Source: Endomicrobium sp.
GTDB taxonomy: Bacteria > Elusimicrobiota > Endomicrobiia > Endomicrobiales > Endomicrobiaceae
Assembly (NCBI GenBank): GCA_031273925.1
Contig: JAISQW010000001.1
Span: 113,944-177,943, forward strand
Length of the DNA stretch: 64,000 nucleotides
Direction: 5' to 3'
Shown: in pieces, positions 13,539 to 51,426 of the stretch
Layout: every line of letters starts with the position of its first letter
Position numbering within the stretch: position 1 is the stretch's first letter
The notes under the pieces: generated by a model
The model's input: the letters and a program-made list of their open reading frames with translations, nothing else
Databases searched by the model: none
What the model was told of the DNA's origin: nothing
Made by a program: the position numbers and the translations under genes

Positions 13539-15572
13539 GTGAAAAAATACAAAAATCAAAAAAATATTACAATAAATATAAAGAAAGTTATTTTTTTATG
13601 TTTTATAACAGTATTAACTTTTTTTATATTTATTGTGCCAAGTAAAGTTGGAGTGATAGGTAGAACGTTTTATGTTATTTTATTTTTTTTGTTTGGAACA
13701 ACATCATATGTTTTACCATTTATATTTTCTTGGTTTTGCTTTATACATGTTATAAAAAATCCACAAAGTGTGTTAACATTAATAGGAAAATTTGATTTTA
13801 TATGGTCAACTATTTGGTTAATCTTATTGTCTGTATTTATTGAATCTATACATTTTATATTTAAATTGAGAATTTATGGTGGTATTATCGGATTGAAATT
13901 ATTTACTTTTCTTAAAGAGCTTTTTGGTATTTGGTTTGTTTTTTTTGTAATTATTACTGCACTTATAATTTTATGTATAAAATTCTTAAAAAATTTAAAT
14001 AAATTTTTTATACAAAAACCTCAGAATAATTTTGAGATAACACATCCAAATCCAAAATTATCTTCTAAAATTTTAAAACGTAATCAACAAGAAAAATATT
14101 TAACTTCTTCTAATGCAGTATCTAAAAAAAATATTAATAATATTAAATATGAACTTCCTTCTGTTAATTTATTACATAACGTTCCTTTACAAAGTTTTAC
14201 AAAAAATAAATCTTTAAGAATGGCAACACTTTTAAAAAAAACTCTTGCAGATTTTAATATTAGGGCAGAAATTCAAAATATTATACACGGCCCAATTGTA
14301 ACAAGGTATGATTTGGTTTTGGCACCTGGGACAAGAATACAAAGTATAGTAAATATTTCAGATAATATTTCATTAATAATGCGTACATCATCTATAAGAA
14401 TTATTCCTATACCAGAAAAAGCTGTTGTTGGTATAGAAGTATCTAATCATTCAAAAATTTTTGTAAGATTAAAAGAAATTTTTGAAAGTAGTGTTTTTAA
14501 AAATTCAGAATCTCTTCTTACTTTGGCTTTGGGAAAAACAATAGATGGATTTACTTATGTAACTAATTTAACTTTAATGCCACACATTTTAATAGCTGGT
14601 GCTACTGGTACTGGTAAAAGTATGGCGCTACATGCAATAATACTCTCTATTTTATATAAAGCTCGTCCAGATGAAGTAAAATTTATACTTATTGATCCAA
14701 AACGTGTTGAAATGACAATATATAAAAATATTCCACATTTATATAATCCTTGTGTAAAAGCTGATTTAGCGAATGTTATAACATCTCCAAAAGAAGCTGT
14801 AATGGTATTAAAAAAACTTGTTAAAGTAATGGAAGAAAGATATGTTAAATTTTCAAAAGTTATGGCAAAAAATATTGAAATTTATAATAATAAAATGGCA
14901 AAAAATAGTGGTGATAAAGAATTTTATATTGTAGTAATAATAGACGAATTATCTGATTTGATACTTACAATGCGAAAAGAAATAGAATGTTATATACAAC
15001 GTTTAGCACAAATGTCAAGAGCAGTTGGAATACATTTAATTCTCGCTACACAAAGACCTTCAGTTAATGTTATAACTGGTGTTATTAAAGCTAATTTCCC
15101 ATCTAGATTATCACTGAAAACTACATCTAAAATTGATTCAAGAATAATTTTAGATACGCTTGGTGCTGAATCATTAATTGGAAATGGTGATATGTTATTT
15201 TTACCTACTGGCAAAACACAGCCTATACATCTTCAAGGAGTTTATATTTCATCGGCAGAAATAGATGATATTATATCATTTATAAATAATCAAAATTTTC
15301 CAAATTCATATAATGTAATTATTGAACATAATATGAAAAATAATTTTGATGATAATGAAAAAATAACAAAAGATTTGATTTTTTCTTTAAAACTTATAAA
15401 TGAACGTAAACGAATATCTCAAGATTTACTGAGAGCGAATTTAGGCAGTTCTGCAAAAGCAACAAATATATTAAGTATTCTTGAAACAAAAGGCTTTGTA
15501 TTTAAACCTAATGGTATGAATAAATGGTGTATAAATTTTGATAAGGTAAAAGCATTTTTATCAAAATTGTAA
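13539..15572 (+). CDS. ftsK: DNA translocase FtsK/SpoIIIE
   Basis: N-terminal TM helices, GATGTGKSMALHA Walker A, IDELSDLI, C-terminal gamma-like winged helix (ISQDLLRANLGSSAKATNILSILETKGFV). Confidence 0.93.
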   Translation: MKKYKNQKNITINIKKVIFLCFITVLTFFIFIVPSKVGVIGRTFYVILFFLFGTTSYVLPFIFSWFCFIHVIKNPQSVLTLIGKFDFIWSTIWLILLSVFIESIHFIFKLRIYGGIIGLKLFTFLKELFGIWFVFFVIITALIILCIKFLKNLNKFFIQKPQNNFEITHPNPKLSSKILKRNQQEKYLTSSNAVSKKNINNIKYELPSVNLLHNVPLQSFTKNKSLRMATLLKKTLADFNIRAEIQNIIHGPIVTRYDLVLAPGTRIQSIVNISDNISLIMRTSSIRIIPIPEKAVVGIEVSNHSKIFVRLKEIFESSVFKNSESLLTLALGKTIDGFTYVTNLTLMPHILIAGATGTGKSMALHAIILSILYKARPDEVKFILIDPKRVEMTIYKNIPHLYNPCVKADLANVITSPKEAVMVLKKLVKVMEERYVKFSKVMAKNIEIYNNKMAKNSGDKEFYIVVIIDELSDLILTMRKEIECYIQRLAQMSRAVGIHLILATQRPSVNVITGVIKANFPSRLSLKTTSKIDSRIILDTLGAESLIGNGDMLFLPTGKTQPIHLQGVYISSAEIDDIISFINNQNFPNSYNVIIEHNMKNNFDDNEKITKDLIFSLKLINERKRISQDLLRANLGSSAKATNILSILETKGFVFKPNGMNKWCINFDKVKAFLSKL

Positions 15573-18473: not shown

Positions 18474-19688
18474 ATGCAAAAAAACATACTTATTGTTGGG
18501 GCAGGTGGTGTATCACATGTTGCGTCTCATAAACTTGCACAAAATAATGATTTATTTAAGAATATTTATTTAGCTTCGCGTTCAATTGAAAATTGTAAAC
18601 AAATATTACTTAGTATAGAACGTAAAAAAAATTATAAAAATCCTTCTAAAAAAATTACAATTATTGAGATTAATGCTTTTGATATAAAAAAAATGATAAA
18701 ATTGATAAGAGACTTAAAGATTTCAATTACTATAAATTTAGCCTCTGCATTTTGTAATATGTCTATTTTGGAAGCCTGTATAGAAACAGGATCAGCTTAT
18801 ATAGATACAGCTATTCATGAGGATCCGGATAAAGTATGCGAAGATCCACCATGGTATGCAAATTACGAATGGAAACATAAAAATCGCTGTAAAAATAGTA
18901 GAATAACAGCAATTTTAGGTGTTGGATTTGATCCTGGTGTTGTAAATGCTTATGTAGCATATGCAAAAAATCATCTTTTAGATATTATAGATACAATAGA
19001 CATAATGGATGTAAATGCTGGAAAACATGATAAGTATTTCGCTACAAATTTTGACCCAGAAATTAATTTCAGAGAATTTGCTAAAGTTTGGGTATGGATA
19101 AATAAACAGTGGGTATGTATACCTGTTCATTCAGAGAAAAAAATATATAACTTCCCTGTTATAGGTAATCATACTATATATTTAACAGGGCATGATGAAA
19201 TTCATTCTCTTTCACAAAATATCGATGCAAACTCAATAAGGTTTTGGATGGGATTTAGTGATCATTATTTAAATTGTTTTAATGTACTTAAAAATACTGG
19301 ATTATTATCAGAAAAGCCTATTAAAACTTCTGAGGGTATTGAAGTAATACCTTTAAAAGTTGTTAAAGCTTGTCTTCCAAATCCAAAAACTTTAGCTCCA
19401 ACTTATAAAGGTGATACTTGTATAGGAGTTTTAATTGCAGGTAAAAAAAATTTTTATAACAAGCAATTTTTTATATACAATGTATCCAATCATGAAGCAT
19501 GTTATAAAGAAGTTGAAGCACAGGCTATAAGTTATACAGCTGGTGTTCCTGCTGCAACTGCAGCAATTTTAATTGCCAAAGGTGTTTGGGATGTTAAAAA
19601 AATGGTAAATGTTGAAGAACTTTTTGTTGACCCATTTATTGATTTACTCGAAATATTAGGTATAAAAACAGAAATAATTAGTATTTGA
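18474..19688 (+). CDS. Saccharopine dehydrogenase-family protein, likely carboxynorspermidine dehydrogenase
   Basis: N-terminal ILIVGAGGVSHVASHKLAQN Rossmann motif; adjacency to nspC. Confidence 0.85.
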   Translation: MQKNILIVGAGGVSHVASHKLAQNNDLFKNIYLASRSIENCKQILLSIERKKNYKNPSKKITIIEINAFDIKKMIKLIRDLKISITINLASAFCNMSILEACIETGSAYIDTAIHEDPDKVCEDPPWYANYEWKHKNRCKNSRITAILGVGFDPGVVNAYVAYAKNHLLDIIDTIDIMDVNAGKHDKYFATNFDPEINFREFAKVWVWINKQWVCIPVHSEKKIYNFPVIGNHTIYLTGHDEIHSLSQNIDANSIRFWMGFSDHYLNCFNVLKNTGLLSEKPIKTSEGIEVIPLKVVKACLPNPKTLAPTYKGDTCIGVLIAGKKNFYNKQFFIYNVSNHEACYKEVEAQAISYTAGVPAATAAILIAKGVWDVKKMVNVEELFVDPFIDLLEILGIKTEIISI

Positions 19689-19691
19689 ATT

Positions 19692-19719
19692 ATGTCCGAT
19701 AATATATATTATGTTAAGT
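19692..19719 (+). other. dif: Candidate dif (XerC/XerD recombination) site at chromosome terminus
   Basis: ATGTCCGATAA-TATATA-TTATGTTAAGT; right (XerD) arm matches E. coli dif TTATGTTAAAT at 10/11, inner left arm ATAA matches; sits at the gene-polarity switch. Confidence 0.8.
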
Positions 19720-19777: not shown

Positions 19778-19825
19778 AAAAAAATACAAACATAATAAAG
19801 TTATTTATTATGTTTGTATTTTTTT
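19778..19825. terminator. Bidirectional intrinsic terminator between convergent genes
   Basis: Perfect 22-bp arms AAAAAAATACAAACATAATAAA / TTTATTATGTTTGTATTTTTTT, 4-nt loop GTTA, T tracts on both strands. Confidence 0.85.
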
Positions 19826-19879
19826 ATATTTAAAAACATGCATTTTATATTTAATATTAATATATTACTTTAAAAAAAA

Positions 19880-20914
19880 TTAAACATATTTTCTCTTTAT
19901 AAGAGTTTCTGCAATTTGTACAGCATTTAAAGCTGCACCTTTTAAAAGGTTATCAGATACAACCCATAAAACAAAAGCTCTGTTACTATTAATAGAAATA
20001 TCAGATCTAATTCTTCCTACATATGTCACTTCTTTATTTTCTGAAAATATAGGCATAGGATATTTCTCATTTTTAGGGTCATCTAAAAGACAAACACCAT
20101 TAGTTCTAGCTAATAATTCTTTTACTTTAGATAATGAAATAACTTTTTTTGTTTCAATCCATATACTTTCAGAATGCGAACGAAATACCGGGACCCTTAC
20201 GCATGTAGCACTAATTCCTATTGAGTCATCATTTAAAATTTTTCTTGTTTCATTTTTTATTTTCATTTCTTCTTTTGTATATCCATTTTTAGTAAAAATA
20301 TCTATTTGTGGTATTAAATTAAAAGCTATTTGATATTTAAATTTATCAAATTCAGTAATACATATATTTTTATTTTTAAGCCATATTTTGGTTTGTTTTA
20401 TTAGTTCATTAATCCCTCTTTGACCAGCTCCTGATACAGACTGATATGTTGAAACGACAATTCTTTTTATACTTGCAAAATCATGTAATGGTTTTAAAAC
20501 TAATACCATTTGAATTGTTGAACAATTTGGATTTGCAATAAGTTTTTTGTTTTTATTTAAAACATATTCATTTACCTCAGGAACTACAAGAGGAATATTC
20601 TTATCCATTCTCCATGCATTAGAATTATCTATAACAAAACTATTTTCTTTAATAAAAATAGGAATAAATTGTTTTGCTATTTTTGTTCCAGCACTAAAAA
20701 TAGCAATATCTATTCCTTTTCCACTTTCTCTTGTGAGTAATTTAACTTTTATCTCCCTTGAATTAAATATTAATTTTTTACCAACGGAATTTTTTGAAGC
20801 AAAAAAATCAATCGATAAAATAGGAAAATTTCTTTTTTCAAGCAATTTTATTATTTCAAGTCCGACAGCACCAGTAGCACCAATAATAGCTATTTTATAT
20901 TTTTTTTTATTCAT
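19880..20914 (-). CDS. asd: Aspartate-semialdehyde dehydrogenase
   Basis: KIAIIGATGAVGLEIIKLLE, NPNCSTIQMV catalytic Cys, STYQSVSGAGQRGI. Confidence 0.94.
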   Translation of the reverse strand: MNKKKYKIAIIGATGAVGLEIIKLLEKRNFPILSIDFFASKNSVGKKLIFNSREIKVKLLTRESGKGIDIAIFSAGTKIAKQFIPIFIKENSFVIDNSNAWRMDKNIPLVVPEVNEYVLNKNKKLIANPNCSTIQMVLVLKPLHDFASIKRIVVSTYQSVSGAGQRGINELIKQTKIWLKNKNICITEFDKFKYQIAFNLIPQIDIFTKNGYTKEEMKIKNETRKILNDDSIGISATCVRVPVFRSHSESIWIETKKVISLSKVKELLARTNGVCLLDDPKNEKYPMPIFSENKEVTYVGRIRSDISINSNRAFVLWVVSDNLLKGAALNAVQIAETLIKRKYV

Positions 20915-22097
20915 AAAGTATTTTTTCAATTTTCGTATCTGGATAGAAATGTGATAAAATTTCATTGTAAATCATACCATTTTCTGCCATTTTTATTGCT
21001 CCACATTGGCACAAACCAACTTTATGTCCATATCCTTTTCCTTTAAAATAAACTTTATTATCATAAATTTCAACGGAATCAAAGTCATGACTTTTAATTC
21101 CGTCTGAATCTACAATAATCCTAAATTCATAAGAATTAATAATAAAACTCCCATCAGAATGTAATATTTCTAATGATTCAGTTGTCCCAAATTGAGTTTT
21201 ATTATTAATTCTTATGTTTTCAATCTCACCAATAATAATATTATTTCTCATAAGTTTTTTTTTAATGAAATCTTTACTCATTACATGCATCCATTTTGTA
21301 TGAGGATTATCATCACAAAACCCACACTTTACTCCTTTTAAATAATTAGGTACATCGTTTTTACATTTCCATATATATTTTGGACTATCTGTATGTCCAC
21401 CACAATTTGCATGATAGACAGTTTCTGCAAGTTGTTCATTATATAATAGAACTTCATCCCGAGTATTACTTACAGCTTTATTGCTATCAATAGTTTCAAC
21501 TTCTATTCCACCGTAAACCTGGCAATGGGTAGTAGAACATACATTAAATCCTTGCGATTGATGCTTGTTAAAATTAACAAATGCATAAGTTCTACTTATA
21601 ATAGCCTGAACTTTAAGTGCTTCTATTCTTTTTGTCATACCCATTTCTTTTATTAAAACACCTTTAACATAATTATCTATATCTAAAACGTTAATAACAT
21701 TTATTTTGTTAATTGATTTATATAATTCTAAATATCCTCTATACGGTTTACAATTTACACAAATAATATCTTCATCAGATATTATTTTAATAGGTAAATT
21801 AATAAAATGTTCAGCACCATTTTGATCAACTATTTTTACATCAGATTGCATATAAATAGCTTCTAAAATTATATCTTTGGAAAATTGTAATTTATTATTC
21901 ATTGAATCCACTACAAAAAAAATACCTGAACTTCCAATTTTAACAGACGAAACGTTTATCATTATCCCAACTTTTATTGTCCTATAATACTGTTCTTTAT
22001 TTAATGTATAACAAATATTATTGTTGTGTTGTTTAAATATTACAATTAATAATACAAAAATTATAAATTTTATATTTTTATAAAGTATATTTCTCAT
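20907..22097 (-). CDS. SpoIID/LytB-domain protein (lytic transglycosylase-like)
   Basis: VLDIDNYVKGVLIKEMG, LKVQAIISRTYAFVN, YHANCGGHTDSPKYIW, KGYGHKVGLCQCGAIKMAENG. Confidence 0.88.
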   Translation of the reverse strand: MRNILYKNIKFIIFVLLIVIFKQHNNNICYTLNKEQYYRTIKVGIMINVSSVKIGSSGIFFVVDSMNNKLQFSKDIILEAIYMQSDVKIVDQNGAEHFINLPIKIISDEDIICVNCKPYRGYLELYKSINKINVINVLDIDNYVKGVLIKEMGMTKRIEALKVQAIISRTYAFVNFNKHQSQGFNVCSTTHCQVYGGIEVETIDSNKAVSNTRDEVLLYNEQLAETVYHANCGGHTDSPKYIWKCKNDVPNYLKGVKCGFCDDNPHTKWMHVMSKDFIKKKLMRNNIIIGEIENIRINNKTQFGTTESLEILHSDGSFIINSYEFRIIVDSDGIKSHDFDSVEIYDNKVYFKGKGYGHKVGLCQCGAIKMAENGMIYNEILSHFYPDTKIEKILYE

Positions 22098-42263: not shown

Positions 42264-42287
42264 TAATTGAATTTATCATATAAATAA

Positions 42288-42639
42288 AAAGACGGTCTAT
42301 ACACCGAATTCTGTCTTTTAAATTATAAAAGTGCAATCATTTCTCTGTTGTTAAAATTACTCTTAACAATCTAGCGGTTTATATTTCAACCTTGCTTTTC
42401 GGTAAGGATTTAGCCGTTTCATATTCTGTATTACTACAAAACTTACCCTTCTTAAAAAGAAGGGTACTTTTCCGTTTCCGGAAAAAGCGTCTCTGATCGC
42501 ACCTCTATTCTCACGAATGACAGGAATTACCTGCTACCGTTTACTGTTTATTGTACAAACAACTTCACACAATTAACAGTCAAAGTTCGGACTTTCCTCT
42601 TTATGACTTTCAACATAAAGCGATTGCACGACCGTCTTT
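42288..42639 (-). ncRNA. rnpB: RNase P RNA (bacterial)
   Basis: Perfect 10-bp P1 (AAAGACGGTC/GACCGTCTTT), GAGGAAAGTCCGAAC, AGAG..GTGCGATCAGAGACG, GACAGAATTCGGTGTATAGACC. Confidence 0.95.
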
Positions 42640-50919: not shown

Positions 50920-51426
50920 ATGAAAAAAGTTATATTTATAACTGCTCCAAAATTATTTAGAGATGAAGAATATTATGAACCAAAGAAAATTTTGGAAACC
51001 AAACAAATAAAAGTTATAACAAGTAGTTTAAAAATAGGTGAACTTCTTGGTAAATTTGGGTTTAAAACAAAAAGTACTATTTTAATTAAAAATATTATCC
51101 CAAGTAATTTTGATGCTATAGCGTATATTGGAGGAACTGGTGCTAGTGTGTTTTTTAATGATTTTTACGCTTTGAAGTTAGCGAAGATCTTTGCTAAACA
51201 AGGCAAACCAACAGGAGCAATTTGTATTGCTCCTGTAATACTCGCAAATGCTGGTGTTTTAAAAAATAAAAAATCAACTGCCTTTGCAGAAGTTAAAAAC
51301 ATAATAATAAAGAAAGGAGCTATATACACTGGTAATGCTTTAGAAATTGATAATAATATTATCACAGCAAATGGTCCAAAATCTTCAAAAATATTTGGAG
51401 TTAGCTTTTTAAATAAACTGTTATAA
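50920..51426 (+). CDS. DJ-1/PfpI family protein
   Basis: DAIAYIGGTGASVFF, PTGAICIAPVILANAG nucleophile-elbow Cys. Confidence 0.87.
   Translation: MKKVIFITAPKLFRDEEYYEPKKILETKQIKVITSSLKIGELLGKFGFKTKSTILIKNIIPSNFDAIAYIGGTGASVFFNDFYALKLAKIFAKQGKPTGAICIAPVILANAGVLKNKKSTAFAEVKNIIIKKGAIYTGNALEIDNNIITANGPKSSKIFGVSFLNKLL

Follow-up and report, generated by a model that had tools for sequence, protein, structure and literature searches.

The dif locus and its neighbours

The window, by which we mean the whole stretch of 64,000 nucleotides that was analysed, is G000:C3:113944-177943. It comes from an Elusimicrobiota genome (G000) assembled as 535,010 bp in 5 contigs and about 80% complete. The gene beside the site described here has its nearest named relatives in Candidatus Endomicrobiellum and Endomicrobium species, with 72-78% protein identity. 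Both are termite-gut dwellers. On this basis the genome belongs to the Endomicrobiaceae. Endomicrobium proavitum is a cultured, free-living relative (PMC4505116).

At 19692-19719 of the window lies the 28-mer ATGTCCGATAA-TATATA-TTATGTTAAGT, read directly from the window, which has an 11-6-11 layout (Table 1). It begins 3 nt after the TGA stop codon (19686-19688) of the last plus-strand gene, and 160 bp separate it from the stop of the convergent asd gene. All main ORFs are on the plus strand to the left of this site and on the minus strand to the right, with one exception at 50920-51426. This is the gene-polarity switch at which a sequence-only reading of the same DNA had placed a dif-like XerC/XerD site and a probable replication terminus. 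Four relatives (G022, G023, G028 and G049) have the same arrangement of decarboxylase, dehydrogenase, dif and convergent asd, and dif adjoins the dehydrogenase gene in several named species. Elsewhere in the window, a match to RNase P RNA at 42284-42639 scores 100.4 bits against the Rfam threshold of 100, barely over it.

Table 1. Features of the dif region, in coordinates of the window.
Feature	Position	Strand	Basis
ftsK, DNA translocase, motor domains and divergent gamma domain	13539-15572	+	PF01580 and PF17854 over cut-off; no PF09397 match; gamma alignment
Carboxynorspermidine dehydrogenase/synthase gene, conserved left neighbour of dif	18474-19688	+	NF043000, E 5e-132, under curated cut-off; synteny
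dif left arm, ATGTCCGATAA, expected XerC-binding	19692-19702	+	Sequence; TCCGATAA conserved order-wide
dif central region, TATATA, 6 bp	19703-19708	+	Sequence; varies among genomes, like other dif sites
dif right arm, TTATGTTAAGT, expected XerD-binding	19709-19719	+	10/11 identical to the presumed E. coli XerD arm; nearly invariant order-wide
Perfect 16-bp inverted repeat with 4-base loop, then six T; overlaps extension block 1	19784-19825		Read from sequence
Displaced extension block 1, AAACATAATAAAGTTATTTATTAT	19788-19811	+	10.8 bits against relatives' profile, reached by 0/300 random stretches of this genome; shift +46
Displaced extension block 2, degenerate	19821-19847	+	Weak alone (22% of random stretches score as high); same +46 shift
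Displaced extension block 3, degenerate; overlaps asd 3' end	19858-19896	+	Weak alone (6.7% of random stretches); same +46 shift
asd, aspartate-semialdehyde dehydrogenase, conserved right convergent neighbour of dif	19880-20965	-	NF011456 over cut-off; synteny

Identity of the dif core

The 28-mer is identical at 20 of 28 positions to what we take to be the E. coli dif sequence (left arm 5/11, centre 5/6, right arm 10/11), and the count for the right arm is the one given by the sequence-only reading. The likeness to B. subtilis that it had also pointed out extends to 22 of 28 positions over the whole site, again compared with the sequence that we presume for that species. The 11-6-11 architecture is present as described, with a conserved XerD arm.

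The dif motif of the relatives, TCCGATAANNNATATTATGTTAAGT, was run against 460,930 bp of this genome, where one match is perfect and no other lies within 1-3 mismatches. Shuffling the motif leads to about 0.03 matches at three or fewer mismatches in the same 460,930 bp. There is one good copy in the sequence searched, not several equally good ones, with the proviso that the genome is about 80% complete and a second copy in the missing part is possible. C2:99376, where the genome has its second-best match, was rejected as a second dif; its left arm is without TCCG and it lies near a tRNA-like sequence.

Across the order the motif is found at three or fewer mismatches in 62 of 84 genomes, mostly once in each, and a reversed control pattern has 5 matches in total. 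Several relatives that keep Xer genes are without a dif match, these being mostly fragmented or incomplete assemblies. A dif site has been predicted for one Elusimicrobia genome (Kono et al. 2011, PMC3025954). In the open-access literature our searches brought up neither an extended chromosomal dif nor any account of dif in Endomicrobium, subscription papers lying mostly outside this coverage.

Uniqueness, conservation, the switch in GC skew and the encoded protein partners, all as assessed from sequence, confirm the 28-mer as the dif site of this Endomicrobium/Endomicrobiellum-type genome. The core itself is an ordinary representative of the known dif type. All sequence-based tests by which the earlier reading might have been refuted were run, and it passed every one.

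Position of the terminus

The cumulative GC skew of the complete 177,943-bp contig rises steadily to a peak at C3:133679 and then falls. This peak, which fits the terminus proposed from the window alone, is 17 bp past dif (C3:133635-133662), in the direction of the extension described below. The reverse change of skew, as the origin should show, occurs near 105.7 kb of contig C2; a search for DnaA-box words near this C2 skew minimum found no cluster.

With dif always read in one direction, about eleven relatives have positive skew ahead of it and negative skew behind it; the polarity of dif relative to skew is thus conserved among them, as is the site itself. In most relatives of the genus the skew maximum is on the extension side of dif, and among the relatives its distance from dif often amounts to between several hundred bp and 2 kb. 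No clear skew switch is seen in the stretch examined in G009 and in three genomes that are more distant or GC-richer (G015, G016 and G076). A dif site marks the terminus region but is no proof that replication forks end at it (Kono et al., PMC3025954). The dif call provides a firm terminus landmark for an endosymbiont group with few cultured members.

XerC, XerD, RecA and FtsK

The genome encodes RecA and two Xer recombinases, one on C3 (297-aa frame) and one on C2 (307-aa frame), both with complete R-K-HxxR-H-Y catalytic residues. From the end of ftsK it is 2 kb to the neighbouring gene set and 4.1 kb to dif. The sequence-only reading had given this distance correctly, at about 4 kb, and had counted it in favour of dif. 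The proximity is uninformative because ftsK lies far from dif in relatives: in G049 it is at C1:253 kb and dif at C1:632 kb, and in many relatives ftsK is close to a xer gene and a long way from dif. The arrangement in the window is a local accident, specific to this lineage.

In none of the 42 genomes of the genus does the Pfam FtsK_gamma domain, the activator of XerD, reach its cut-off. The C-terminal domain of FtsK is strongly conserved over the order, with SSARATNILSILE in the place of GYNRAARIIEQME, which we take to be the E. coli sequence and used as the alignment reference. The E. coli residues that read KOPS, N1296, R1300 and E1303 (PMC2533119), align to A, N and S in the domain of this order, a nearby gap leaving some doubt. 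R1289, the key XerD contact of FtsK-gamma (PMC5052618), aligns to K or R and so to a positively charged residue. A PDB sequence search with the gamma region as query gave no meaningful match. Because the gamma domain falls under the Pfam cut-off and its KOPS residues are changed, FtsK control of dif recombination may differ here.

The KOPS sequence is not universal. The known KOPS words are almost lacking in this genome, where GGGNAGGG occurs in 5 copies and GAGAAGGG in 3, and neither points to dif (3 against 2 and 2 against 1 on the leading and lagging strands). Polar, over-represented 6-8-mers common to G000, G049 and G063 include no convincing KOPS-type candidate. Another guide sequence, or another route to dif, is likely.

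Three very reduced or incomplete genomes of the same genus (G038, G039 and G041) have no Xer gene and no convincing dif, G039 having only a 3-mismatch match. The ftsK match of G038 contains two in-frame stops, and its RecA is kept. It is possible that dimer resolution was lost in these three during genome reduction. The present genome is similar in size and keeps the Xer pair, RecA, FtsK and dif, so that reduction to about 0.5 Mb has left RecA and dimer resolution in place. A relative of 0.4 Mb that gave no dif match has an Xer gene that is apparently shortened at its N-terminus (L290, G040:C1:226003-226512, 258-aa frame).

A conserved extension on the XerD side

Alignment of the flanks reveals an AT-rich conserved extension of about 130 bp beside dif, on the XerD side only. 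In an ungapped comparison of 51 genomes, the 95% limit obtained by shuffling is exceeded in 54 of the 150 columns downstream and in 2 of the 150 upstream; the 51 genomes are mutually related, and the upstream flank is an equally related control. The elements of the extension have fixed positions, with a TTAAAGT-like core at +29/30, TATAAAT at +65/66, CTTTAA at +102/103 and ACTC or ATTC at +123/124, and its distance from dif is constant to within 1-2 bp in most genomes. It contains inverted TTAAAGTAA/TTACTTTAA cores. Extra XerD-like half sites were sought in it and rejected, the best profile match of about 6.8/11 being no better than other AT-rich DNA.

The pattern of the last block has 45 matches in the order, 40 of them where they are expected next to dif and the remaining 5 within the level of the reversed control (7). 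The extension is thus essentially confined to dif. Its last block is present in six families of the order (f1 to f6) and also in two further families of the class (f7 and f9); among the families compared at class level, f8 does not show it clearly. The AGCACTC end of the block is seen at +121 in G163, a genome from outside the class. The range of the extension is thus six families of the order and, in part, other classes.

Genomes that share the extension differ in their downstream genes and in the orientation of these genes. RNAalifold finds no consensus RNA structure in the extension and Rfam has no match to it in the sources scanned, and an RNA gene was rejected on these grounds. Because the downstream genes vary and both RNA searches were negative, we conclude that the extension is, as far as sequence can tell, a DNA element tied to dif.

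The window has a degenerate copy of the extension at 19788-19896, 46 bp further out from dif (Table 1). Its block 3 has CTTTAA at a distance of 73 bp from block 1, the same spacing as in G031, where the shift is 53 bp, and in G049, where there is no shift. The extension moves as one piece while its distance from dif can change. The constant 73-bp spacing despite the shifts therefore favours a discrete module, and it speaks somewhat against a rigid synapse shared with XerCD. With its degeneracy and its 46-bp displacement, the copy in the window may have lost its function. The inverted repeat that overlaps its block 1 is a possible terminator for the two convergent genes, and may have evolved from the extension element.

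Comparison with known Xer sites

Together these results make us highly confident that the 28-mer is a dif site which, in the group to which Endomicrobium belongs, has a conserved linked extension. It differs from the chromosomal XerC/XerD dif of E. coli and B. subtilis in its divergent XerC arm (5/11 against E. coli), in the changed KOPS residues of FtsK-gamma and in the XerD-side extension of about 130 bp. Like these sites and the one predicted in Elusimicrobia (PMC3025954), it is 28 bp long with an 11-6-11 layout and a near-identical XerD arm, and it is a single intergenic copy at a GC-skew switch in a genome that encodes XerC, XerD and FtsK. The single-recombinase sites difSL/XerS and difH/XerH and the XerL system of Legionella are also dimer-resolution sites at a skew switch; these systems do not apply to the present genome, which has two distinct Xer recombinases.

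In the plasmid sites cer (ColE1) and psi (pSC101), too, the core for recombination has a long and conserved sequence next to it, in our case one that may be protein-binding. The accessory proteins of these plasmid sites are ArgR or ArcA, and PepA. The accessory sequences of cer and psi are about 200 bp long and adjoin the XerC-binding site (PMC11724359), whereas the extension described here is chromosomal and on the XerD side, the XerC side being not conserved. What is new here is the dif-linked extension, which makes dif in this group a new variant; the core is already of a known type.

Possible function of the extension

Chromosomal dif is normally taken to need only XerCD and FtsK. The 28-mer is the single chromosomal dif. 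On the model that we favour, RecA recombination would join sister chromosomes into a dimer. We infer that XerC would bind on the left and XerD on the right, and that XerCD would cleave at the 28-mer, adding one crossover at the 6-bp centre under the control of FtsK at the septum and so yielding monomers. The module of about 130 bp on the XerD side would then provide, next to dif, the DNA to which at least one accessory or terminus protein binds and works together with dif.

Our best guess is that the extension has an accessory or terminus role as a module that probably binds a protein. A fuller proposal is that dif in Elusimicrobiota is composite, with a 28-bp core, a protein-bound XerD-side module of about 130 bp (accessory, fork-stopping or terminus-organising) and a reshaped FtsK-gamma that does not read known KOPS; we regard this as a serious possibility that falls somewhat short of probable. 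If true, a composite dif would amount to a novel way of resolving chromosome dimers or controlling the terminus, conserved across much of a phylum. The narrower idea, that the module binds proteins as an accessory site in Xer recombination itself, is a little more doubtful again. A long, conserved, one-sided partner sequence present over many genera points to a protein or a step that is missing from the model.

The extension could instead be a site for terminus organisation or condensin unloading, kept beside dif and having no effect on Xer recombination. In B. subtilis XerD unloads SMC at the terminus, which counts in favour of such a role, as does the behaviour of the module as a separate unit, shifted by 46 and 53 bp in two reduced genomes with its own 73-bp spacing kept. 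Most genomes hold the distance to dif fixed within 1-2 bp, however, which suggests a joint function, and we consider this explanation unlikely.

We rate somewhat lower the chance that the extension is a replication fork trap of the Tus-Ter or RTP-like kind, with forks ending within about 100 bp of dif. Its place at the terminus, on one side of dif and at a fixed spacing, would suit a trap, as would the inverted TTAAAGTAA/TTACTTTAA cores and a skew maximum that is displaced 17 bp towards the extension in the window and to the same side in most relatives of the genus. Ter sites come in oriented sets, whereas each genome has one copy of block 3, and skew maxima several hundred bp to 2 kb from dif, as often found in the relatives, do not agree with forks ending so close to it.

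It is improbable that the extension is a regulatory or transcribed element of a neighbouring gene, such as a promoter, small RNA or terminator. The extension is intergenic and block 1 in the window forms a hairpin followed by six T, but its spacing is fixed relative to dif and not to a gene, the downstream genes and their orientation differ, and there is neither RNA structure nor an Rfam match. We can practically dismiss the idea that the 28-mer is no dif but an AT-rich palindrome that arose by chance: the genome is about 75% A+T and has 26 places within three mismatches of an 18-mer of the core, but the full motif with TCCG is unique, conserved over the order and located at the skew switch.

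Phage genes and duplicated dif sites in relatives

Microviruses at dif have been described in Bacteroidetes (PMC3091885), and gokushovirus prophages are also found at dif (PMC7062461). A comparable small ssDNA-phage module is flanked by dif copies in G070, a member of the same family; here the host belongs to the Elusimicrobiota, and the module is in this relative and not in the window. The two dif copies of G070 are 4.1 kb apart in the same orientation. The microvirus-like module between them (L317 4473-8624, G070:C103:8472-12620) encodes a major capsid protein (phrog_514, E 6e-186), a pilot protein and a replication initiator (phrog_942, E 5e-74), and it was probably integrated at dif by Xer-type recombination.

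In G043, a genome of the same genus, dif copies on two contigs (L318 and L319, on C6 and C44) adjoin phage-type recombination genes, namely RecT-like, exonuclease, ssDNA-binding and resolvase genes; the C44 copy adjoins asd. Possibly one or two prophages have inserted at dif in this genome. Given the phage-type genes beside duplicated dif copies in both G070 and G043, dif would evidently be recombinogenic in this group, and these genes lend indirect support to the predicted binding and strand exchange by XerCD. Since phages use dif in relatives, the 28-mer of the window might be thought an attachment site left by an Xer-using mobile element and not the host's own dif; with one copy, between conserved housekeeping genes and in the same place in element-free species, the chance of this is negligible.

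G028 also has a degenerate second dif (L205 2536-2563, on G028:C2), which shares the orientation of dif and is located 7.4 kb upstream of it. There are no phage genes between these two copies, the interval being occupied instead by cobalamin-transport-like genes.
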